Part shown: positions 159 through 18,766 of the stretch, in pieces
Layout of the letters: every line of letters begins with the position of its first letter
How positions within the stretch are numbered: position 1 is the stretch's first letter
IMG/VR virus record: IMGVR_UViG_3300036861_000878
Span: 1-20,099 of that record
Direction: 5' to 3' (one strand)
Source of the DNA: a virus
Length of the DNA: 20,099 nucleotides
Notes under the pieces: generated by a model
Seen by the model: the letters and a program-made list of their open reading frames with translations, nothing else
The model's database searches: none
Told to the model about the DNA's origin: nothing
Program-made: the position numbers and the translations under genes

Positions 159-1027
159 CAGACTCTCGTCAGCCCGTCATAGGCCGAGCGCACGGAGCCG
201 ACCCGACTATTGATCGCGGTGTTGAGTTCGCGGTAGTAGTCGCGGAGGAAGGCATCCGCCTCGTCATATTGGCGTTCGTTCCGCTTGGCCAGGCTGGCGG
301 CATAGTGCGCGACCGGCTTCGTGTAGGGATAGGGCAGCGGGTCCGGGTCTGTGAGCGAGACCAGCGGATTCGAATAGACGGCACAGTCCCATTCGGTCGT
401 GTACGCGAAGGACGGGTTGGGCCCGAGGATGACCTGGTTCGGGCCGTAGCGCGCCCACGCCTCGGGCACGCCCTGATAGGGCGTCCAGGGCCGCTTCGTC
501 GCGTTCAGCATGGTGAGCGACTTCTCCTCGAGGATCACGCGCGTCGAGACATAGATCAGGTTGATCGCGATCACGTCGAAGACCTGGTTGTTGCCGACCT
601 GGGTAAAGGTGTAGGTGTCCGTCCCGACGATCAGCGTGAAGGTGAACAGTTGGCGGTTCTGCTCGGTGTCGAGATCCCGCTGGTTCATCGCTCGGTTGAT
701 ATAACCGATCTTGTTGGCCAGTGGCCAGAAGCCGTCATTGGGATCGTGGAGCAGGTCGCGGAGTTCGGTGAGATAGCCGGAGAGGTTCTGCACGCCGGCC
801 CCGCCGCTCGGCAGCGTGCCGAAGACCGCCCAATCGATCGAGCCGCCAGCCGCCGGGGCTGGCACCGAGAAGGTCACGACAAACTGCGTCGCGGTCTCGC
901 CGGTCACCGAGAAGGCCGTCACCCACGAGGGCGAGACGGAGACCTGGTAGCCGGTGCCAAAGGCCCCGGTCACGGTGACGGCGACGGCCGCCGCGGTCAC
1001 TGCCTGCGTCCCAGTGATGATGCTCAT
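158..1027 (-). CDS. Putative head-tail adaptor/connector protein with N-terminal beta domain
   Basis: This 289-residue protein has two parts. Residues 1 to about 70 are a Thr/Val/Ala-rich beta segment (GAFGTGYQVSVSPSW ... SIDWAVFG), of a kind I associate with small beta-sandwich modules in phage virion proteins. From about residue 78 the sequence becomes mixed alpha/beta and ends in a charged helix (HYAASLAKRNERQYDEADAF) followed by DYYRELN. The C-terminal half fits connector proteins that sit below the portal. Its position downstream of the capsid gene fits that role. Its start overlaps the end of the previous gene by four bases (ATGA), and its stop overlaps the next start. No signal peptide is present, unlike its three upstream neighbours. 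The exact adaptor family is not certain. Confidence 0.6.
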   Translation of the reverse strand: MSIITGTQAVTAAAVAVTVTGAFGTGYQVSVSPSWVTAFSVTGETATQFVVTFSVPAPAAGGSIDWAVFGTLPSGGAGVQNLSGYLTELRDLLHDPNDGFWPLANKIGYINRAMNQRDLDTEQNRQLFTFTLIVGTDTYTFTQVGNNQVFDVIAINLIYVSTRVILEEKSLTMLNATKRPWTPYQGVPEAWARYGPNQVILGPNPSFAYTTEWDCAVYSNPLVSLTDPDPLPYPYTKPVAHYAASLAKRNERQYDEADAFLRDYYRELNTAINSRVGSVRSAYDGLTRV

Positions 1028-1605
1028 TGCCGCCGGCTCTGGTCTAGCTGCACATCGACATAGGTGATGGTCGAGATGTCGCCCGCAAAGCCGCTATTGA
1101 CGAGCTTAAACTGCACATGGACACTCTGTTTCGTCGTGGGTGATGGCGTGATGGCCGTTCTAGTGATCGCGGCGACGGTCGCCGCATCGAGGGAAAACCC
1201 CTCGTAGATGAGCGGCTGGGCCGTAGCGGTCACGCGCCCAGGAATCGTGACGGTGATGAATCCGTAGACCGTATTCCCCACGGTCGCGCTGGTGCAGCAG
1301 GACGAGACGGTGTTGCCGTCGATGAGGACATTGAACCCATTCGCGGCCCCGCCGCCGGAAGCCTGAAACAGGCCCGCGGCCCGAATCGTGAGGATCGCTG
1401 GCAGATCGATCGGGACCACGACATCGAAGACGATGGGCGATGTGCCGGTATCATTCGACTTCGAGCCCTGAAAATAGAAGAGCGGGATCTTGCGACCCTG
1501 GGCCTGCGGGGGCGTGCCATAGTTGTCCGTCACCGCAGCGGAGAGGCCCGGAACGGCGAGCAGGCCGAGCAGGAGCAGGACCAGGCGGCGCAGGGAGCGC
1601 GGCAT
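1024..1605 (-). CDS. Secreted beta-rich protein of unknown function in the structural operon
   Basis: This 193-residue protein starts with a clear Sec-type signal sequence: basic MPRSLRR, a leucine-rich core (LVLLLLGLLAV) and a likely cleavage site around GLSAAV. The mature part is rich in Thr, Val, Gly and Ser, with alternating hydrophobic residues expected of a beta sandwich, and has a CC pair near residues 102-103 (SSCCTS). There are no predicted membrane helices after the signal. It sits between another exported protein and the adaptor-like gene, overlapping both ends. A capsid decoration or fibre-like role is possible, but the signal peptide argues that at least some of it leaves the cytoplasm. 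No family is recognised. Confidence 0.55.
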   Translation of the reverse strand: MPRSLRRLVLLLLGLLAVPGLSAAVTDNYGTPPQAQGRKIPLFYFQGSKSNDTGTSPIVFDVVVPIDLPAILTIRAAGLFQASGGGAANGFNVLIDGNTVSSCCTSATVGNTVYGFITVTIPGRVTATAQPLIYEGFSLDAATVAAITRTAITPSPTTKQSVHVQFKLVNSGFAGDISTITYVDVQLDQSRRQ

Positions 1606-2114
1606 CAGTAGGTGCCGCAGACCGCGGTGATCTGGTAATAGGCAGCGACGACGGTGCCGAGGGTCACGAACAGCCGGTAGCTGGGCGGCAAGGGCAAATC
1701 GAGTTGAACCTGAATGGCCGGCATCGAGGCCACTTCCGACACCGTCGAGGACGGCAGCGTCACATCCGCATAGTAGACGTTATTGGCGGGCGAGGTCGTG
1801 GCCGATCCGTTGTTGATGAAGATGCGCGCCACCGTCGCAACGGACGTGCCGGTGGGCTGGAAGACCATTTTCTCGCACCGGCTGCCGTTGGTCGCATCCG
1901 CCGTGAAGACGATGACGACGGTGCCGCCGCCGTCCTTGTCGGTGTTGGCCGCCGAGATCGTGGCAAAGCCGATCGCGGGGGCCTTGGTGAAGATCGGGCT
2001 CGTGTTGGCGACCCCGAAGGCGGGCAGGACCGGGGCGAGGAACTGCGCGCCGAGCAGCCCGATCACGGCCGCGGCGACGTACAGCCGGAACACATTCCGC
2101 TTTGTCCACTTCAT
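1605..2114 (-). CDS. Phage beta-rich structural-type protein with an N-terminal signal/anchor
   Basis: The start chosen is the ATG at 2114-2112, preceded by a gagaggag Shine-Dalgarno; the longer reading to 2186 has no such signal. The 169-residue product begins MKWTKRNVFRLYVAAAVIGL, a basic N-terminus with a hydrophobic helix that could be a signal peptide or anchor. The mature part (NTSPIFTKAPAIGFATISAA, then VARIFINNGS, EVTLP-like strands and an LDLPLPPSYRLFVTLGT segment) recalls a small beta protein I know from many phage structural operons, usually without any signal. The added N-terminus is therefore notable. Two cysteines (SRCEKM and AVCGTY) could form a disulphide after export. A decoration-protein role is inferred from position only. 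Confidence 0.55.
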   Translation of the reverse strand: MKWTKRNVFRLYVAAAVIGLLGAQFLAPVLPAFGVANTSPIFTKAPAIGFATISAANTDKDGGGTVVIVFTADATNGSRCEKMVFQPTGTSVATVARIFINNGSATTSPANNVYYADVTLPSSTVSEVASMPAIQVQLDLPLPPSYRLFVTLGTVVAAYYQITAVCGTY

Positions 2115-2127
2115 CAGATGTCTCCTC

Positions 2128-2715
2128 TCAGCGCACTGGCAGGGTGGCCGGGAGCGAGTAGAGCATCCCGATATTGAAGCCGCCACCCGCCGCCGCCAGA
2201 TCGATGCTCCCGGCGCCCGGCGTGATCGTCACGGTGCTATTGGTCGAGGTGAGCGAGGCCAGCGTGAATCCCGAGCCGTTGCCGATCAAGAGTTGACCGT
2301 TTGGCGTCGTCGCGCCGTTGACCCCGGTGCCGCCATCGGCCGCGGGGATGGGCGTCGTCTGCATCGTGACCGTGTTGGCGGCGCCGCCCTTGATATAGGC
2401 GCCATTGGTGATCGCATTCGTGGCGAACACTCCGGCGTTGAGGGTCGGCAGACCGGAGGAGTTCGGTTGGCCGAAGTTCTGCCCGGTGCCGCCGTTCGTG
2501 GTCGAGATCGGGAAGCTGACGGCGTTGAAGGTGTCGAAGGCGGCGCCGTTCCAGACCTTGACGACGCGGTTGGCCGAGTCGAAGCACCAGGTGCTCCCAG
2601 TGACGGGCCCCGTGATGAGCGTGCAGTCCGAGCGGATGAAGAGGCCGGGGCCTTGCGCCCAGGCCGGGCTCGCCACGGCCACCACGAGGAGGGCGAGCCA
2701 CCACTTCCGGCGCAT
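2128..2715 (-). CDS. Secreted fibre-like repeat protein
   Basis: This 195-residue protein opens with a textbook signal peptide: MRRKWW, a hydrophobic core LALLVVAVA and cleavage near SPAWAQ. The mature part has a short Cys-containing beta segment (SDCTLITGPVTGSTWCFD), whose two cysteines are well placed for a disulphide. Glycine-rich motifs typical of phage tail-fibre shafts follow: TTNGGTGQNFG, AADGGTGVNGATTPNGQLLI and a TPGAGSIDLA stretch. Fibre repeats of this kind are normally cytoplasmic virion parts, so a Sec signal in front of them is odd. The gene lies directly downstream of the major capsid gene in the same operon. It may be a short fibre, a decoration protein or a surface-displayed adhesin. 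Confidence 0.55.
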   Translation of the reverse strand: MRRKWWLALLVVAVASPAWAQGPGLFIRSDCTLITGPVTGSTWCFDSANRVVKVWNGAAFDTFNAVSFPISTTNGGTGQNFGQPNSSGLPTLNAGVFATNAITNGAYIKGGAANTVTMQTTPIPAADGGTGVNGATTPNGQLLIGNGSGFTLASLTSTNSTVTITPGAGSIDLAAAGGGFNIGMLYSLPATLPVR

Positions 2716-2745: not shown

Positions 2746-3765
2746 TTAGATCTGGCCGCTGACGGCGTACCCCGTGACCAGGGTCATCGATGCCGGCTTG
2801 ACGCAGATCGCCTCGAGCACGGCCACAAGCGCCCCGATGTATCCAAGCTGGAAGTTCGGCAGGGTCGAGGCGAACCCGGTGAAGGCGAAGGCCGCCGCCT
2901 CGTGGATGTAGAAGGAGAAGTAGCGCGTATTGAAGAGCAGGAGGTTCCCCTGCGGGCACTTGGGGTCGAGATAGATCGGCACGCCCGCAACCATGAGCGC
3001 CGTAAAGGCCGCGCGGATGCCGCCGACCTGGTTATCGAAGCCGGTGCCGGGCGTGACGCGGTACTGCTCATTGGAGACGAAGTCCTCGGCCAGGAGCACC
3101 CAGGTTGCCGGGTGCATGACGCCGATGTTGGGCATGTCGCCGCCGTTGAAGTTCATCGCGGAGACGATCATCTCGAGCACGCTGGCCCGGGTCGGCGTGG
3201 GCGCGCCCGACTTGGCCTTCACGTTCGCGTTCCACCAGGTATTGACGGTGGCCGACCGCGGGATGTTGCCATACGTCCCGGTGTTGCCGGCGATCAGCGG
3301 GAAGCCGTCGATGTTGATGCTGCCGTAGGTGCCATTGGTCCACAACTGCGTCGAGAGGTAGTCGGCGACCTGGTTGCCCGCGTCGTTCATGCGGGCCTCG
3401 ATCAGCGGGACCACGGCCGCGTTAAGCTGGACCAGGCCCTCCATCCCGAGGAACGGGATCGGGACCACGACGGCCTTGAGGTTGAAGTCGGCCTCGGTGA
3501 TGCCGGTCAGCGCCGCGGGCTGCTGGAAGGCGCCCGAGTAGTCCGTCGCCTGGGCCTGGACGAAGGGCGTGCCCTGGACCGGGACGGTGACGGAGGACAC
3601 TCCGCCTGACGCGGTCTGAGCATTGGCGAGCCCGGCCGAGAGAACCGGCGTCGCCGTGTAGAACTGCACGACGGCCTTCGGAATGAAGGCGCGGCGCGTG
3701 ACGGCGGTCAACTCCGTCCCGACCGCCCCCGATGGGATGATGCCTTGACCCAGAACCGCTGGCAT
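2746..3765 (-). CDS. Major capsid protein
   Basis: The product has 339 residues and no signal peptide. Sequence features fit an HK97-fold coat protein: an N-terminal arm (VTRRAFIPKAVVQFYTATPV), an extended beta segment (FNLKAVVVPIPFLGMEG, residues 94-110), a long helix at about 118-142 (VVPLIEARMNDAGNQVADYL) expected to be the spine helix, and later domain strands such as MHPATWVLLAEDF and GVPIYLDP. Length, position after a scaffold-like gene and before connector genes, and composition all agree. It starts at the ATG at 3765, three bases after the end of the WaaL/Wzy-type gene. Residues 92-142 are mirrored in a diverged form by the small gene at 13383-13667. Confidence 0.85.
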   Translation of the reverse strand: MPAVLGQGIIPSGAVGTELTAVTRRAFIPKAVVQFYTATPVLSAGLANAQTASGGVSSVTVPVQGTPFVQAQATDYSGAFQQPAALTGITEADFNLKAVVVPIPFLGMEGLVQLNAAVVPLIEARMNDAGNQVADYLSTQLWTNGTYGSINIDGFPLIAGNTGTYGNIPRSATVNTWWNANVKAKSGAPTPTRASVLEMIVSAMNFNGGDMPNIGVMHPATWVLLAEDFVSNEQYRVTPGTGFDNQVGGIRAAFTALMVAGVPIYLDPKCPQGNLLLFNTRYFSFYIHEAAAFAFTGFASTLPNFQLGYIGALVAVLEAICVKPASMTLVTGYAVSGQI

Positions 3766-3768
3766 GGT

Positions 3769-4926
3769 TTAGCCCTCCGTGAGTGCGGGGTGATCGACCC
3801 GAGACGCCGTGCCGAGGCCCACCACGATCAGGCCCACGAGCGCCAGCGGCACGACATGAAGCGGGAAGAACCCAAGCGATGAAGTCCCGAGCGCGGCGAT
3901 CGAGCCGCCCCAGGGCGAGACGGCGAACATCTCGCGGTGCGACCAGAGCCAGAGCGCAAACAGCACGGCGCCCACGAGGCCGGTCTCACAGAGCCACTGG
4001 AGCGGCTCGGAGTGCGCCTCGCGGAAGAATTCCTTGGTCGGGAGAAACTTCTGCTGGAGTTGCTCGAGCGGCACGCGACGAGCCCAGCCGCCCAGGCCCC
4101 AACCGAAGACAGCGTCCGAGTGCCACCAGGTATGAAGCCCAAAACCCCAGATGCCGACGCGCCCAGCGGCGCGGCTCCAGAGCCCAGCGGCGCCCTTGGC
4201 GTAAACCCGCCAGCCGACCGCGAAGCACGCCATGGCCATCACCAGCGCGCCAGTCCAGTTGACCTTTCGGTATCGCACCGCCAGGCCGATCGTGAGCGCG
4301 GCGAGCGCGGTGAACGACTTGCCGGTCCAGACCGCGAAGATCGCGAAGGGCAGGCACCAGAGCGGCATCAGCGGCGCCGTGATGGCGATGTAGCTGCCGG
4401 CGGCATCCACGGTGCCGAGCGTGCCGAGCGGCTGGACGACCGGATTCAGCTTGCCACCGAAGAGCGGGCCCCAGAAGAGGTCATAGCCCGCCAACTGCTG
4501 CAAGACATAGGCGACCTGGAAGGCGCCGAGTGCGGCGAGAATCGCGGAGATCCGGGGCCGCCACGCGGTGGGCGTTCTCCGCATGAGGATCAGCAGCCCC
4601 GCGCCCGCGGTGAAGAGGATCGTATGCGTGGCCTCCATCGTGGCGCCGCGGTAGAAGATCACGACGGCCGCCATGGCAATCACCACCCCGAGCCAGCGGT
4701 CCTGGGTGCCGATCCAGCAGGCGCCGACGCCCAACACGACCAGCCAGAGCACCTGCAAGCCCCAGAAGTCGATGCCAGGCGCCGGATCATACGGCGGCAG
4801 GCCCAGGCCAGGGAAGCGATGGGCGAGCATGGGCCACCACGTCACGAGCGGGGCGAGGATGACGCCAGCGACGGGCAGCATCCAGGCCCGCCGATGAAGC
4901 CGCCGCCAGCGTCGTGACGTGGGCAC
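3769..4926 (-). CDS. O-antigen ligase/polymerase-like (WaaL/Wzy_C) membrane protein
   Basis: The 385-residue product is a multi-pass inner-membrane protein with roughly ten hydrophobic segments. Three features match the WaaL/Wzy_C superfamily, whose members join or polymerise O-antigen units at the periplasmic face: GTLGTVDAAGSYIAITAPL (169-187) resembles the usual GTFGNPN..AAYLAL segment; GRVGIWGFGL ... FGWGLGGW (255-281) resembles R...W..AL....PLFGxGLG; and AHSEPLQWLCETGLVGAV (304-321) is the classic H-x-x-x-LQ-x-x-x-E-x-G-x-x-G motif, with His305 and Arg256 as likely functional residues. The gene sits between an exported beta protein and the capsid gene, 3 bases from the latter. A role in changing host surface polysaccharide is inferred; temperate phage D3 carries a comparable O-antigen polymerase. 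Confidence 0.75.
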   Translation of the reverse strand: MPTSRRWRRLHRRAWMLPVAGVILAPLVTWWPMLAHRFPGLGLPPYDPAPGIDFWGLQVLWLVVLGVGACWIGTQDRWLGVVIAMAAVVIFYRGATMEATHTILFTAGAGLLILMRRTPTAWRPRISAILAALGAFQVAYVLQQLAGYDLFWGPLFGGKLNPVVQPLGTLGTVDAAGSYIAITAPLMPLWCLPFAIFAVWTGKSFTALAALTIGLAVRYRKVNWTGALVMAMACFAVGWRVYAKGAAGLWSRAAGRVGIWGFGLHTWWHSDAVFGWGLGGWARRVPLEQLQQKFLPTKEFFREAHSEPLQWLCETGLVGAVLFALWLWSHREMFAVSPWGGSIAALGTSSLGFFPLHVVPLALVGLIVVGLGTASRVDHPALTEG

Positions 4927-4932
4927 GCTCGA

Positions 4933-5622
4933 CTACTCGCAGAGTTGCAAGGTCGCGCGGTAGATCTCGACCGAGTTGCTGCTGCTCGCAGCCTGCCAAC
5001 CCCACCAGACAGAGAGCTTCTGCGGCACGAGGGTATTGGTCTGCGCCAGCGACGCAGCGTTGAAGACCGACTCCGTGGCGAAGCCGCCCGTGCCGCTCTC
5101 ATAGGCTAGCCTGGCGGTGAGGAAGCTGGTGAAGCCAGCCGGCGCCAGGGTTGGCGTGGCGAAGGTCGGCGCGAAGTTCGTGGTCGCAATCGGCGAGACC
5201 CAGACATCGAGCGCGATCGGCCGACGCGCCATCGAGGCATCGAGCGCGACGGCGTTGACGAGTGCCACCGTCGCCGTCTGGTTGCTTGGCGTGGAGGTCG
5301 TGCCCCCCGGTCCCCAGTTGACGCCCAGGTTGATCACCGTGCTCGAGGAGGCCGTGCTGATGAGCCCGTGCATGGCGAGATGAAGCGGAATGGCCGAGTT
5401 GGACTGGGAGATGGTCGCCATCAGGGCCGCGGGGATGGTCCAGTAGAAGAGCTTGCCCTGCGCGGTCGAGTTGACGATGTTCACGCTGGCCGTACTGGCG
5501 ACGACCAGGCCACAGGTGATGATGAGGCTCGGCTGCCCCTCGGCGGATCGCGGGAAGGGGACCAGGCTGCCCCCAAGAAGGAGGCCAGCCATCAGGACTG
5601 CACAGAATTTCCGTCGTGTCAT
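4933..5622 (-). CDS. Secreted beta-rich protein of unknown function
   Basis: The 229-residue product begins MTRRKFCAVLMAGLLLGGSL, a twin-Arg/Lys basic N-terminus and hydrophobic core, with a likely signal peptidase site near SAEGQP. A lipoprotein reading is unlikely because no lipobox Cys lies at the end of the core. The mature protein is rich in Ser, Thr, Ala and Val with many short strands (HLAMHGLIST, VINLGVNWGPGGT, SNSVEIYRATLQLCE), as in beta-jelly-roll or decoration proteins. It starts after the scaffold-like gene and is followed six bases later by the WaaL/Wzy-type gene, so all are probably co-transcribed. No family is recognised. Function could be virion decoration or modification of the cell envelope. 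Confidence 0.5.
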   Translation of the reverse strand: MTRRKFCAVLMAGLLLGGSLVPFPRSAEGQPSLIITCGLVVASTASVNIVNSTAQGKLFYWTIPAALMATISQSNSAIPLHLAMHGLISTASSSTVINLGVNWGPGGTTSTPSNQTATVALVNAVALDASMARRPIALDVWVSPIATTNFAPTFATPTLAPAGFTSFLTARLAYESGTGGFATESVFNAASLAQTNTLVPQKLSVWWGWQAASSSNSVEIYRATLQLCE

Positions 5623-7463: not shown

Positions 7464-7883
7464 GTGGCGGGCTACGGGGCGCTCCATTCGCGGGTCCAGC
7501 GCCGGCGCGGGCAACCGAAACGGTGCGAAGAATGCGGGACGACTGACCCCAAAAAGTCCTACGATTGGGCGAACCTCACTGGGCGGTACGAAGACCCGAG
7601 CGACTATCGGCGGCTCTGCCGATCATGTCACGTCCGGCTTGATCTCAAGTCTCCTCCTCGGCGCGATGCGCCGAACGGCCCACGCACGGAACTATTCAAG
7701 GCCGTTCCGTTCTTGCGATCAGGTGTCGGCTCCGAAATTCAATGCGGGTGCGGCTGCGGACTCGTGATGTTGCAGTTTGATAAAAATGGGCGCGAGCGAA
7801 AATTTGCGAAGGGCCACTATCTTCGATGGATCGCTAACGCCGCTGCGCCTTCTCCAACTTCGCCTTCGCCTCCTGCTCCTTGA
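7464..7883 (+). CDS. HNH-type zinc-binding protein, putative free-standing homing endonuclease
   Basis: The 139-residue product starts at the GTG at 7464; an in-frame ATG is not available nearby. Residues 21-24 (CEEC) and 52-56 (CRSCH) form the paired zinc knuckles of small HNH nucleases, around DWANLTGRYEDPSDYRRL, the usual WAN...Y.D..DY..LC.SCH pattern. Residues 94-121 (CGCGCGLVMLQFDKNGRE, then FAKGHYLR) resemble the CGCG...F.xGHxxR module often attached to such nucleases. The last ~15 residues are Pro/Ser-rich and are read from the antisense of the portal 3' end, which the gene overlaps. It is the only plus-strand gene in the left block, suggesting a mobile insertion. Nuclease activity is inferred from the family. 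Confidence 0.6.
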   Translation: MAGYGALHSRVQRRRGQPKRCEECGTTDPKKSYDWANLTGRYEDPSDYRRLCRSCHVRLDLKSPPRRDAPNGPRTELFKAVPFLRSGVGSEIQCGCGCGLVMLQFDKNGRERKFAKGHYLRWIANAAAPSPTSPSPPAP

Positions 7884-9489
7884 TCTCCATCACGCGCTCG
7901 CCCTGCTTGGCCTGAGCCTCGGCAATCTTCCGGGCCTTGGCCTTGAGCCGCGTGTCCGTCATCGGGAGATCGAGGAACTCGAGGAAGTCCTCCGCGTCGA
8001 TCACCTTCATCTGTTTGGCGAGCGTGGCCTTCTGGAGGAGATGCTGCTGGTAGAGCGGGCTGGCTGAATGCGCCCAGACGCGCGCCACGAAGTCGCCCGG
8101 CATCTGTGAGAGAAGGAACTCCTCACCGTTCGGCTTGCGGAGCGTCGTGTCGTTCACGCGGCGATGCAGCCGCATCATCGAGGTCGCGATCGACTCGAGG
8201 GTATCCTCCACGAGCATCGCGCGGATCATCGTGGGCCCGGCGCCGAGCATGGCCTGCGCCATCGCCTGCTCGCCTGAGCGCACGCCCGCCTCGGTCTGGC
8301 CGACCATGCCCCTCGGGAGCGCGCCCTGCCTGGAGAAGAGCGAGTCGATGTGATCCACCATATAGAGCGGATCGGGCAGCGGCGGCGGGGCCAGCGATGT
8401 CACTTCTGAATTCGGCTGGCTCGAAACGATATTGCCGCCCTTCTTGCGGAACGCCTTGGCCTTCTCGCCGTCGAGCATCGAGAAGTTCTTGAAGAACATC
8501 GGCGGATCGAGTTGAAGCTCGTCGCGCTCGTTCACCTCGGCCAGCTTCATCTCGCGGGCGGCCTGCAAGCTGACGAGATACTCGAGCGGGCAGACGCCCC
8601 AGGCATACCCAGGCGTCGGGTTGAGCGTCAGATTATGGAAGGGATGCTCGCCAGGGTTCAGCGGGTTGAGCGGCTCCCAGATGATCTCCTCGGTGTGGGT
8701 GAAATTGGTCACGACGCGATAGTCCTTCGCGGCGTCGTCTTTCACCCAGAGTTCGGCCAGCCGGACGACCTTGTCGCCCACGCGCGGGCGGGCGTGCGCG
8801 ACGTTGCTCTCGCCCTGCACGTTGCCGATCATGCTGGGCGAGGAGGCCGCGACGAGGAGGCGCTGCATCGTGGGCGGCATCGTCTCCGACATGGACTCGT
8901 AACTAGGAGTGGCGTGCGCTTCGGCCAGGGCCATCAGCCGCTCGCGCCGATCGTCCGGCAGTGGATCGATGAGCCGACGGAAGCGGGCGAGGTCGAGGAC
9001 GTACCAGTGGCAGATCGCCTCCTGGGTGTCCCAGTCGAGTTCCTCGTGGAGCAGGCCCACATCGGATGGAGCCGGCACCATGGTCAGCGCGGCCTCGTTC
9101 TGTGAGACCAGGACTTTGAAGACGACCGTGTCCCAGACGTGCGACCAGGTGACGCCCATGCCGAAGATCAACCCGGCGTCGGAGTCGTGCCAGAGCCGAT
9201 GAAGCTCCTCGCGTGCCACCGCGGCTTCGTCCATCCATTGATCGCCGTAATGCGGCGGCAGCGCGATCCCGAACCGGACGGACTCCGGCGCGTAGAGATA
9301 GGCCGAGGAGTATCCGACGAATTCGTTGAGCTTGTTGTAGAGCGCCCGGTCTCCGCGCTCGCTGCCGGTGAGATACCAGGTCTTCATCCGCTGGTTGCGC
9401 GACCCTCGGTCAGCCCGCGAGATGTCGCACTGCCGGATGAGGTTTCGATAGAGCCGGTCGCGGGCGTCTCGCTCAGTGGGGAGGATCAC
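7834..9489 (-). CDS. Portal protein
   Basis: The 551-residue product has the size and layout of a phage portal, the dodecameric ring at one head vertex through which DNA is packaged. Visible features are an N-terminal helical region (RDRLYRNLIRQCDISRADRG), a clip/stem-like middle with WSHVWDTVVFKVLVSQNEAA and HPFHNLTLNPTPGYAWGVCP, a segment LVSLQAAREMKLAEVNERDE, the phage-portal-like LFSRQGALPRGMVGQTEAGV, and a long charged C-terminal helix (LKAKARKIAEAQAKQGERVM). It begins eight bases after the zinc-ribbon gene and its 3' end is overlapped by the convergent HNH gene. The terminase is not adjacent, which is unusual. No split or frameshift is seen. Confidence 0.75.
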   Translation of the reverse strand: MILPTERDARDRLYRNLIRQCDISRADRGSRNQRMKTWYLTGSERGDRALYNKLNEFVGYSSAYLYAPESVRFGIALPPHYGDQWMDEAAVAREELHRLWHDSDAGLIFGMGVTWSHVWDTVVFKVLVSQNEAALTMVPAPSDVGLLHEELDWDTQEAICHWYVLDLARFRRLIDPLPDDRRERLMALAEAHATPSYESMSETMPPTMQRLLVAASSPSMIGNVQGESNVAHARPRVGDKVVRLAELWVKDDAAKDYRVVTNFTHTEEIIWEPLNPLNPGEHPFHNLTLNPTPGYAWGVCPLEYLVSLQAAREMKLAEVNERDELQLDPPMFFKNFSMLDGEKAKAFRKKGGNIVSSQPNSEVTSLAPPPLPDPLYMVDHIDSLFSRQGALPRGMVGQTEAGVRSGEQAMAQAMLGAGPTMIRAMLVEDTLESIATSMMRLHRRVNDTTLRKPNGEEFLLSQMPGDFVARVWAHSASPLYQQHLLQKATLAKQMKVIDAEDFLEFLDLPMTDTRLKAKARKIAEAQAKQGERVMEIKEQEAKAKLEKAQRR

Positions 9490-13168: not shown

Positions 13169-13386
13169 CGACTCGGATTCGCACGATCTATGTGATGCGC
13201 GAGGCCGACAAGGACGGCAGCGCGGCTCCGGCGGCCCACGTCTTCATCGAGACGACGGCGGCCGGCGCGATCGTCTACGGTGTGCGCGCGAGCGCCCGAC
13301 GCCTTGGGCGTGCCAGGGAACTCGCCGAAGCCGAGTTCCAGAAACTCCGGACATTCGCGGAGAAGCAGAAGGAGGCGAAGGCGTGA
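13165..13386 (+). CDS. Small alpha/beta protein of unknown function
   Basis: The 73-residue product starts within the ATGA overlap of the previous gene. It has strand-like segments (TRIRTIYVMREADKDGSAAP, AHVFIETTAAGAIVYGV) and a charged C-terminal helix (LAEAEFQKLRTFAEKQKEAK). There are no cysteines or membrane segments. The next gene, the capsid-derived ORF, starts at the GTGA overlap with its stop. Function unknown. Confidence 0.45.
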   Translation: MTTRIRTIYVMREADKDGSAAPAAHVFIETTAAGAIVYGVRASARRLGRARELAEAEFQKLRTFAEKQKEAKA

Positions 13387-13667
13387 GACTGACGGCCGGA
13401 GAGTTCAATCTGAAAGCGGTTGTGACGCCGATTCCATTCCTGAGTATGGATGGGCGCGTTCAGGTGTCAGACTCCACGCCAACCCCACCACGCGACCGGC
13501 GCCATCGCTGGGAGCGCACCGGCAGCACGAAGCGGCGGCACTCGTGGCGGTGCCGGGCCTGCGGCCGTCGCCGTTGGACGACTCCGATCGTGGCGCTGAT
13601 CGAGTCGCGGATTAATAAGGCCCAGCGACAACTAAGCCGTGCGCTGGAGGCTCAGGTCTGGCGATGA
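13383..13667 (+). CDS. Capsid-derived fragment interrupted by a zinc-knuckle insert
   Basis: This 94-residue ORF starts at a GTG overlapping the previous TGA. Residues 6-27 (GEFNLKAVVTPIPFLSMDG...) match major capsid residues 92-113 at 16 of 22 positions. Residues 69-93 (IVALIESRINKAQRQLSRAL, then EAQVW) match capsid residues 118-142 at 11 of 25 positions, without gaps. Between them, the four capsid residues LNAA are replaced by 41 residues containing HRWERTGSTK and HSWRCRACGRRRW, a basic zinc-knuckle-like patch. In the first block ten of the sixteen identical residues use different codons, so this is an old, diverged copy rather than recent duplication. It is an intact frame in the operon: its stop overlaps the next ATG. 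It might interfere with capsid assembly, or be a recombination relic; both are inference. Confidence 0.6.
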   Translation: MRLTAGEFNLKAVVTPIPFLSMDGRVQVSDSTPTPPRDRRHRWERTGSTKRRHSWRCRACGRRRWTTPIVALIESRINKAQRQLSRALEAQVWR

Positions 13668-16627: not shown

Positions 16628-16866
16628 TTGAGAGCCACGCTGACGCTTATCGGACCATCGTTGCGATCCGCCGCCTTCTTCTAAGCGATGAGGAGATTCC
16701 ACCTGACCTCATGCGTCGCGAGTACCTGCGGACGCTCGATATGTGCGAAGAACTCCTGGTCGGTCTTGACCAAGCGCGGGATGCGTTCGTCGTGTTTCTC
16801 CGGATGGTCAACGAGCGGCGCCGATTGAGGAGTTCACATGAAGATCCTCTCGAATCGAGGCGGTGA
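16624..16866 (+). CDS. Small helical protein of unknown function
   Basis: The ATG at 16624 overlaps the previous stop (ATGA). The 80-residue product (MIESHADAYRTIVAIRRLLL start) is helical, with a hydrophobic repeat (MCEELLVGLDQARDAFVVFL) and an Arg-rich end. It has no signal, membrane or metal motif. Its TGA overlaps the start of a membrane peptide (TGATG). Its position two genes before the terminase large subunit could suit a small terminase subunit, but no DNA-binding motif supports that. Confidence 0.4.
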   Translation: MIESHADAYRTIVAIRRLLLSDEEIPPDLMRREYLRTLDMCEELLVGLDQARDAFVVFLRMVNERRRLRSSHEDPLESRR

Positions 16867-16979
16867 TGCTCAGGAAGGCCATGGAGGACTTCGAGATGAA
16901 ACTGGCCGTGATCGTCATTGCCATCGGCGTCGGCATAGTCATCCTCGCAGCGCTGGTCGTGATAGAGTTGCGTGGATGA
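16866..16979 (+). CDS. Single-pass small membrane peptide before the terminase gene
   Basis: The ATG at 16866 overlaps the previous stop; a second in-frame ATG is at 16881. The 37-residue product is a membrane helix (MKLAVIVIAIGVGIVILAAL) after a short charged N-terminus, with a charged tail. Its TGA overlaps the terminase ATG (ATGA at 16976), so translation is coupled. Function unknown. Confidence 0.45.
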   Translation: MLRKAMEDFEMKLAVIVIAIGVGIVILAALVVIELRG

Positions 16980-18766
16980 TCCGGCTCGACGTTGCGGGCT
17001 TCGAGGAGTTCGGCCGCCAACTCACGATTCCGAGCAAGGACAGCGGACTGGTCCGGCTAGAGCCCTGGGGCACCCAGCGGCACCTGATTCGAGAGATCGA
17101 CGCCGGGCTCGAGCAGGATGTCCACGACTTCGTCGTCCTCAAGGGCGGCCGACAGATCGGCGGGACGACGACCTGTGATGCCCTAAGCCTCTGGTGGTGC
17201 CAGGCGAATCCTGGCATCCAGGGCATGCTCGTCAGCGATGATGACCCGAACCGAGACTATCGCCGCGACGTGATCCTCGAGATGCTCGAGAGCCTGCCTC
17301 GGGACTATCGCCAAGAGGTGCGGTTGAACAACCTCGGTCAACTCGCCTGGCGGAACCGATCGCGGCTGATGTTCGCGGCGGCGGGGCGGAGGTCGGGCGG
17401 CAACCTCGGCCGCTCCCGCGGGGTGAATTACCTCGAGGCCGACGAGGTCGGCTCCTGGCGCAACCAGGAATCTGTCTCGGCGCTCAGGGCGGCGCTGTCA
17501 ACGAAGAACCCCCGCCGGCTCTACGTCTGGAATTCCACCGCCCGCGGCATCGGGACGGTCTTCCACGATATGTGCAAGGTGGCCCAGCGCGCCGTCACGC
17601 AGCGGTTCATCTTCCTGGCCTGGTGGCGGCATGAAGGCTGTCGGATTGAACGGACCCAGGGCGAACTCTGGGATCGCTACTGGCTGGAGCGACCACAGCC
17701 GACCCAGGAGGAGCGGCAGTGGATGAGCGAGGTTCGCCTTCGCTATGAGGTCGAGATCCAACCCGAGCAGCTTGCATGGTATCGGTGGCAACTCGTCGAG
17801 GAGTTCTTCGGAGACGAGGCGATGCTGGCCCAGGAGTTCGGCTGCCTGCCGGAGGACTGCTTCCAGGCATTCGGCGATAAGTTCATCGCGCCGCCCATTC
17901 TCCAGCGGCTCCGGATCGCGCTCGACGCGGCCCCGAGGCCGTCGGGCTACCGTTACGACTGGGGGCCGACCCTTGACGAGAGCCGCGTGATTGCGGATGA
18001 TCCCGACACCGCGCCGCTTGTGATCTGGGAGGAGCCCGATCCTCTGGGGGCCTATGTGGTCTCCGGTCATCCGGCGTGGAGTTCGTCACCGAATGCCGCC
18101 CACTATGTCGCGCAGGTCTGGCGGGTGTGGCCAGACCGGATCGTCCAGGTCGCCGAGTACGCTGCGGATGCTGGAGCCATGTACCAGTTCGCCTGGGTGC
18201 TGCTCCACCTGGCGGGGGCCTACCGGACGCAGCTTCCGACCTACTTCATCCTCGAGGTCGGCGTCACCGGCTATCGCGTGCTCGAGGAGATCCAGCTTCT
18301 CGAGCGCCACGGCTACGGGCTCTCGCTCCGTGGCAAGCAGCAGATCGAGAACCTCATCGGATCGGTGCAACACTATTACTATGTTCGGCCAGATAACATC
18401 TATGCCCGCACGTCTCCGATTGAATGGAAGACGGACCACGACAAGCGGCCATGGATTCTGCACGGCTTGCGGGACACGATCGAGCGCGACCACATCACCA
18501 TCCGCTCGCGAGAACTCATCGACGAGTTGGCGGCGGTGCGCAGAGGCGAGGAAGGGGACAGTGACGTGATCGCGGGCGCCGCCGCGTCGAGTGATGCGCG
18601 AGTGATGACTGCGGCACTAGCCACGGAGTGCTGGATGCGGTCGGCGATGCCGGATCTTCACATGATGGTCGCGCCGAAGGAGGCTGGGCCGGCTGACCCG
18701 ACGAGCGTGCAGCAGCGCCTCGTTCAAAACTATCTGAGTCGGTTGGTCTCTGGGGGGACACCGTGA
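16976..18766 (+). CDS. Terminase large subunit (packaging ATPase/nuclease), atypical catalytic residues
   Basis: The start is ATG 16976, coupled to the preceding stop; the frame is open to 16838 but that part overlaps better genes. The 596-residue product has the two-domain layout of the motor that pumps DNA into the head. The ATPase part has a Walker A-like GGRQIGGTTT (57-66), a Walker B NYLEADEVG with Asp156-Glu157, and YVWNSTARG (183-191) as coupling motif. The nuclease part has YVVSGHPAW (360-368), EYAADAG...QFAWVLLHLAGAYR, ILEVGVTG with Glu427, and ASSDARVMTAALA with Asp540. Canonical enzymes have Lys near Walker A residue 63 (GK) and Asp at the GxDPA position; here Gly63 and His365 stand there. 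Activity could be altered or use displaced residues. It is separated from the portal and inverted. Confidence 0.8.
   Translation: MIRLDVAGFEEFGRQLTIPSKDSGLVRLEPWGTQRHLIREIDAGLEQDVHDFVVLKGGRQIGGTTTCDALSLWWCQANPGIQGMLVSDDDPNRDYRRDVILEMLESLPRDYRQEVRLNNLGQLAWRNRSRLMFAAAGRRSGGNLGRSRGVNYLEADEVGSWRNQESVSALRAALSTKNPRRLYVWNSTARGIGTVFHDMCKVAQRAVTQRFIFLAWWRHEGCRIERTQGELWDRYWLERPQPTQEERQWMSEVRLRYEVEIQPEQLAWYRWQLVEEFFGDEAMLAQEFGCLPEDCFQAFGDKFIAPPILQRLRIALDAAPRPSGYRYDWGPTLDESRVIADDPDTAPLVIWEEPDPLGAYVVSGHPAWSSSPNAAHYVAQVWRVWPDRIVQVAEYAADAGAMYQFAWVLLHLAGAYRTQLPTYFILEVGVTGYRVLEEIQLLERHGYGLSLRGKQQIENLIGSVQHYYYVRPDNIYARTSPIEWKTDHDKRPWILHGLRDTIERDHITIRSRELIDELAAVRRGEEGDSDVIAGAAASSDARVMTAALATECWMRSAMPDLHMMVAPKEAGPADPTSVQQRLVQNYLSRLVSGGTP

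Follow-up and report, generated by a model that had tools for sequence, protein, structure and literature searches.

Tailed-phage heads are thought to assemble entirely in the cytoplasm. The virus record examined here, which is 20,099 bases long and is referred to in full as the window, carries within its head operon a gene for a putative periplasmic glycan transferase. What does such an enzyme act on, and why does its gene stand among those of the head? The initial annotation had read it as a WaaL/Wzy-type O-antigen ligase or polymerase that modifies the host surface late in infection, and had mentioned an unexpected role in the virion only as an aside. Our analysis ties the gene, termed wzyC, to an adjacent gene for a protein with an export signal, and virion protein glycosylation, which lies nearer to that aside, is the best-supported reading, with late modification of the host surface as the main rival.

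The head operon and neighboring genes of the window

The genes relevant to this question are all encoded on the minus strand:

7834–9489, minus strand: portal protein at the upstream end of the head operon, with 29–30% identity to the annotated portals of MW202825 and MW202753
5651–6220, minus strand: 189-aa gene in the scaffold position (tblastn), directly preceding the capsid gene in relatives that lack the pair
4933–5622, minus strand: g229, predicted Sec signal peptide followed by a jelly-roll beta-domain; proposed glycan acceptor
3769–4926, minus strand: wzyC, 385 aa, GTG start; putative periplasmic glycan transferase of the Wzy_C/WaaL/PglL superfamily
2746–3765, minus strand: major capsid protein, 339 aa, podovirus type (NF033394, E 1.6e-33; phrog_9953, E 1.1e-23)
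2128–2715, minus strand: 195-aa protein with a signal peptide (MRRKWWLALLVVAVASPAWA/Q) and tail-fibre-like repeats (phrog_31660 tail fiber, E 0.0016)
1605–2186, minus strand: 193-aa protein, by inspection with a hydrophobic N-terminus near an internal start (MKWTKRNVFRLYVAAAVIGLLGAQFLAP)
1024–1605, minus strand: 193-aa protein, by inspection with a signal-peptide-like N-terminus (MPRSLRRLVLLLLGLLAVPGLSA/A)

Transcription proceeds from the portal gene (9489–7834) through small genes and the 189-aa gene (6220–5651) to g229, wzyC, the capsid gene and the fibre-like genes. Just 3 nt separate the stop codon of wzyC from the capsid ATG, and the two capsid profile matches confirm the capsid-operon position described previously. 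The capsid protein of the window has a normal cytoplasmic N-terminus, for which the start was checked. The 195-aa protein is a possible further exported virion protein, judging from its signal peptide and repeats.

Two other features of the window lie outside this operon. A short plus-strand ORF at 13383–13667 encodes a degenerate capsid-like fragment (EFNLKAVVTPIPFL...), which may be what is left of a second capsid gene. The terminase gene (16838–18766) lies on the strand opposite the head genes, while in G001, L027, MW202825 and MW202753 it is located on the same strand and directly upstream of them. The orientation in the window reflects either a rearrangement or an assembly join.

WzyC belongs to the Wzy_C superfamily and retains two catalytic residues

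The wzyC product matches the Pfam profile Wzy_C (PF04932) over residues 207–324 with a score of 42.2 bits (E 8.9e-11), above the gathering score of 31.7 bits, and the profile is matched by eight of nine family members. The superfamily assignment made from the bare sequence is thereby borne out, and the three motifs named for it are present as AHSEPLQWLCETG-LVG, GTLGTVDAAGSYIA and W-HSDAVFGWGLGGW. PHROG profiles gave no match to wzyC, and NCBIfam gave nothing meaningful. Its hydropathy (GRAVY 0.58, about 10–12 hydrophobic segments) is that of a polytopic membrane protein, in agreement with the many-helix backbone noted earlier. An AlphaFold model from five sequences is poor (pLDDT 59) and consists almost entirely of helices; a fold search with it yielded no significant match, and a search of PDB sequences with alignment profiles of wzyC and g229 yielded none.

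The long loop preceding the last helices (residues 243–308) contains R256 and H305, which align with R288 and H338 of E. coli WaaL in a family alignment including WaaL. Among 20 phage Wzy_C proteins, the H338 equivalent is His in all and the R288 equivalent is Arg in 19. The position of WaaL R215 is Lys in the window protein, His in most members of the window's own clade (clade I) and variable elsewhere. As judged from the alignment, two of the three catalytic residues are present in WzyC. A study of PglL and WaaL identified R215, R288 and H338 as functional residues common to both enzymes, and reported that BLAST is unable to tell PglL from WaaL, that PilO lacks the PglL motifs and that pglL genes mostly adjoin the gene of their target (PMC3643930). 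The PglL_A profile (PF15864) was unmatched in all nine wzyC family members tested, at E values up to 0.1. Since the residues are shared, BLAST does not separate the enzymes, PilO is devoid of PglL motifs and PglL_A is unmatched, lipid and protein acceptors cannot be told apart from the sequence alone.

In two close pairs of genomes, dN/dS is about 0.2 for wzyC, 0.3–0.46 for g229 and 0.08–0.17 for the capsid gene, values that indicate purifying selection on wzyC. This ratio, together with the occurrence of homologues at the equivalent site in numerous divergent phages, excludes a chance ORF.

The fixed neighbor of wzyC is g229

Relatives were reached through a capsid protein search, followed by profile searches for further carriers; single-sequence wzyC searches of IMG/VR and of 50,697 phage records returned no relative. 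All carriers are metagenomic contigs, and no cultured relative was found. In clade I they comprise the window, L002, the L004–L008 group, L026, L027, L032/L113, L034, L037, L112, L114 and L122. The gene thus occupies the same site in 10 further phage lineages, at least 11 including the window, with 42–54% identity to the window protein in the family alignment. One of these contigs (L114), from a bacterial genome collection, was placed by binning in a Chloroflexi MAG; since all of the stretch read is phage, this is weak evidence on the host.

Every carrier has the order scaffold, g229, wzyC, capsid, and in some of them a short additional segment precedes the capsid gene. The placement ahead of the capsid gene, first seen in the window, therefore recurs among the relatives, but the capsid gene is not the constant partner: its distance from wzyC ranges from 1 to about 900 nt, whereas the g229 stop and the wzyC start are separated by −1 to +6 nt in eight of nine lineages (6 nt in the window) and overlap by 8 nt in L026. 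Wherever wzyC precedes the capsid gene in clade I, the gene immediately upstream of wzyC is a g229 homologue. Among the 80 capsid loci for which 2.5 kb or more of upstream sequence was available, wzyC is present in 22 (many of them copies of the same phage) and absent from 58, and a search of these 58 with the g229 profile was negative. The fixed neighbor of wzyC is g229, not the capsid gene.

In a capsid tree of 27 deduplicated rows, the eight sampled carriers form one clade (support 97/87), which corresponds to a single change, a result reached in 0 of 500 shuffles. L038, the sister of the carrier clade, has an empty site, in which the scaffold gene directly precedes the capsid gene. Because the carriers form one clade and their sister is empty, the pair was gained once in clade I; it was retained there as capsid protein identity fell to about 48%. 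We regard it as very probable that wzyC and its exported partner constitute one functional unit.

Four capsid ORFs of this clade (L027:9376–10512, L032:9860–10999, L112:9182–10288 and L114:9747–10886) begin in frame with a signal-peptide-like start and a second hydrophobic stretch. Each has AGGAGG or AAGGAG upstream, and no ribosome site is present at the internal GTG. Such a membrane hairpin, as predicted from the sequence, would keep the capsid domain cytoplasmic yet anchored.

g229 encodes a jelly-roll protein with a predicted export signal

The g229 start in the window is preceded by the Shine-Dalgarno-like AAGGAGG (GAAGGAGG), and such a sequence is found just upstream in 17 of the 18 partner starts checked across all phage types. 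Following the predicted signal cleavage site, Q30 is invariant in 11 g229 homologues. The g229 model (pLDDT 69.8) shows an N-terminal helix followed by a jelly-roll. Its fold is similar to that of legume (ConA-type) lectins in the PDB (VIA, Z 9.7, rmsd 3.8 over 163 residues), with a low TM score and moderate model confidence; among viral models, it resembles mostly uncharacterised phage proteins, some of them annotated as depolymerase or tail-repeat proteins. On the strength of this model, g229 is taken as a virion-type jelly-roll protein, with no claim of sugar binding. The window g229 matches no Pfam or PHROG profile, including the cement family PF09956 and the decoration PHROGs.

N51-x-T53 of g229 was considered as an N-glycosylation sequon and dropped, as it is not conserved (absent in L034 and L112). 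No acceptor sequon common to the partners of all phage types is visible. The genome G012 contains three g229 copies, including L026:9247–10062, between wzyC and the capsid gene, and L028:3499–4131. One copy is far from wzyC, as if several acceptors were served.

Similar pairs occur in other phage head operons

Distant Wzy_C genes were found in four other types of head operon (clade I being type I), each directly after the gene for a signal-peptide protein. In type II (L129, L127/L126, L134, L135 and L136), the capsid-protease gene is followed by a signal-peptide protein of 159–162 aa and, 0–12 nt later, by Wzy_C. Type III (L123) has scaffold, capsid, signal-peptide protein and Wzy_C, the last with a 14-nt overlap. 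Type IV (L148/L149) has a PF19821 capsid, another gene, a signal-peptide protein and Wzy_C, and type V (L124/L125) has the capsid, a 151-aa signal-peptide protein and Wzy_C. The Wzy_C profile score exceeds the cut-off in L129, L123 and L148 and is weak in L136 and L125. A capsid PHROG is common to types I and III, and capsid-protease PHROGs are common to types II and V; owing to this sharing, the five types amount to no fewer than three clearly distinct head modules, not to five fully independent cases.

The partners in two of these types resemble a known class of virion protein. Matches to the cement family PF09956 exceed the cut-off in L134 and are weak in L129, L127, L135 and L123, and the L123 partner also matches phrog_122 head decoration. 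By these profile matches, the partner resembles a capsid cement protein in types II and III, and its gene stands where a cement gene usually lies. Bordetella phage PBb001, which has a capsid protein related to the type II one, is devoid of Wzy_C, and the gene after its capsid gene encodes a PF09956 cement protein (E 9.2e-20) without a signal peptide. Thus, in this single control, the most telling comparison in the data set, the cement gene at the same place bears an export signal only where Wzy_C follows. The Wzy_C-linked partners differ from the PBb001 protein in their Sec signal peptides, and the window g229 falls outside PF09956.

The type II partners (L129:7253, L127:1775, L134:3672, L135:6958 and L136:6993) end in P-x-S-[AT]-x-A-[AG]-Tyr-stop. 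This conserved tail, which is absent from the PBb001 cement protein, is a candidate acceptor site.

Export signals, sugar genes and lifestyle of the carriers

With one simple scorer, signal peptides were counted in 11 of 64 genes downstream of the capsid gene in wzyC-positive loci and in 4 of 343 such genes in wzyC-negative loci, counts that are confounded by phylogeny and by repeated near-copy genomes. Nonulosonic-acid genes (NeuB and a CMP-sugar transferase) are present in three of six carrier records of 38–44 kb; the window has none within its 20 kb. Family-2 glycosyltransferases (Glycos_transf_2) are absent from the eight records searched. The six 38–44 kb relatives, whose records are possibly incomplete, gave no match to tyrosine integrase (PF00589) or serine recombinase (PF00239), which lowers the likelihood of lysogenic conversion. 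These findings fit a role in the lytic cycle, in which the phage supplies special sugars and the remaining lipid-linked glycan comes from the host.

The nonulosonic-acid-like cluster of G003 (L017:732–9038) encodes a DegT aminotransferase, epimerases, NeuB, a CMP-transferase and a Gfo/Idh oxidoreductase, and includes a second Wzy_C protein just below the Pfam cut-off. G013, a carrier without NeuB, encodes formyltransferase-like and methyltransferase proteins (L030:1072–1800 and 179–883), which are possibly sugar-modifying.

A proposed mechanism and its relation to known systems

On balance, we consider it probable that WzyC is an inner-membrane transferase resembling PglL/PilO, which glycosylates an exported virion protein in the periplasm. 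In addition to the pairing, the export signals with their ribosome sites, the superfamily, the single gain with retention and the recurrence, which can be read in the sequences, this account takes in the export, enzyme activity, acceptor, glycan and virion attachment, which we infer. During late expression, g229 and then wzyC would be translated in succession from the head operon. g229 would be exported by Sec and its signal peptide removed. WzyC, an inner-membrane protein with the catalytic loop on the periplasmic side, would move a host-made lipid-linked glycan onto g229, and the glycan may be tailored in some relatives by the phage nonulosonic-acid genes. Other exported fibre-like proteins are perhaps also acceptors of WzyC. 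The glycosylated protein would then encounter virions, either at the membrane or when the cell lyses, and decorate them, and the decoration would change adsorption, stability or recognition.

The nearest known arrangement is that of PglL/PilO (comP-pglL in Acinetobacter, pilA-pilO in Pseudomonas), in which, as with wzyC, a membrane enzyme of the Wzy_C superfamily adjoins the gene of one Sec-exported protein. The enzymes also have in common the His and Arg conserved in the Wzy_C region and a G-x-G motif near the active loop. In contrast to those systems, wzyC is phage-borne and located in a head operon, and its partner is jelly-roll or cement-like rather than a pilin; WzyC further differs from PglL in that the PglL_A motif is missing and the Arg at R215/R224 is not conserved. 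These last two features count against glycosylation, although PilO likewise lacks PglL_A. Other points against it are the absence of a common acceptor sequon, the poor wzyC model without a fold match and the clade-I g229, which is not recognised as any known virion protein. Furthermore, an exported decoration protein would still have to reach a cytoplasmic capsid.

A broader form of this reading, which we offer tentatively as somewhat short of probable, is that in several tailed-phage groups virion proteins (cement and fibre-like) are exported by Sec and glycosylated periplasmically by the phage's own Wzy_C, with lipid-linked glycans that come from the host and are modified in part by phage nonulosonic-acid genes, and that virion assembly is completed outside the cytoplasm.

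Alternative explanations

WzyC could instead be an O-antigen ligase or polymerase that alters host LPS or capsule late in infection, against re-adsorption or superinfection, with g229 as an exported helper such as a lectin-like receptor blocker. The superfamily is shared with WaaL and with the phage-borne Wzy proteins of D3 and VarioGold, which have been read as serotype-conversion morons (PMC9658991). E. coli WaaL (waaL, b3622) resembles WzyC in size, many-helix topology and the H338/R288 equivalents. The likeness of the g229 model to ConA-type lectins also agrees with such a role, and the nonulosonic-acid genes of three relatives could change surface sugars. We nevertheless judge this explanation fairly unlikely. 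Unlike waaL, wzyC resides in the head operon in all lineages and in no LPS locus, its R215 equivalent is replaced, and it is paired with a virion-type protein that carries an export signal. The O-antigen genes known from phages resemble morons and are expressed in lysogeny; those of D3 and VarioGold lie in moron-like, probably lysogenic clusters, whereas wzyC belongs to a late head operon and no integrase was detected, in keeping with the distinction from D3-type morons drawn at the outset. Within the phage collection, no sequence match between wzyC and D3/VarioGold-type genes was detectable. The proposal that host O-antigen is the target is weakened by the partner: in every lineage, and in the four other types as well, the gene is linked to a neighbor for a phage protein with a Sec export signal, and in two of those types the partner is cement-like. 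O-antigen modification leaves unexplained why a cement protein gains a signal peptide only together with Wzy_C. In VarioGold, a signal-peptide gene lies directly upstream of the Wzy_C gene in the same direction (VG_p25/VG_p26; PMC9658991), which may be the same kind of pair as g229-wzyC.

Alternatively, the export signals could serve to anchor virion proteins at the inner membrane for assembly there, with WzyC as an anchor or lipid-handling factor that transfers no glycan. The four clade-I lineages with a signal-peptide-like, hydrophobic capsid N-terminus and an upstream ribosome site are in line with this idea, as is the loss of the WaaL R215 equivalent. However, nearly all members keep the catalytic His and an Arg of the R288 type, under purifying selection, the capsid N-terminus is normal in most lineages, and the partner signal looks cleavable, with the invariant Q30 after the site. 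Membrane anchoring is a rather improbable account of the pair.

That wzyC is a selfish or accidental passenger without function in infection, including the host remnant from misassembly named in the initial annotation as grounds for refutation, is most improbable; the carriers are metagenomic contigs with no cultured relative, but conservation in at least 11 lineages, the single gain with retention, the low dN/dS and the recurrence in other types refute it for practical purposes.

Implications for tailed phages

Literature searches, which are no proof of absence, found no description of a phage-encoded oligosaccharyltransferase for virion proteins or of a tailed-phage head operon that pairs an exported virion-type protein with a glycan transferase of its own. 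Phage virion glycosylation as known from mycobacteriophages is performed by cytoplasmic glycosyltransferases. A pair consisting of an exported virion-type protein and a periplasmic-type transferase would reveal another glycosylation route, with a testable acceptor for each enzyme. It would also offer new enzymes for coupling proteins to glycans and correct the annotation of such genes as O-antigen conversion genes. If true, the proposed mechanism would represent a new route of morphogenesis and cloaking for double-stranded DNA tailed phages.
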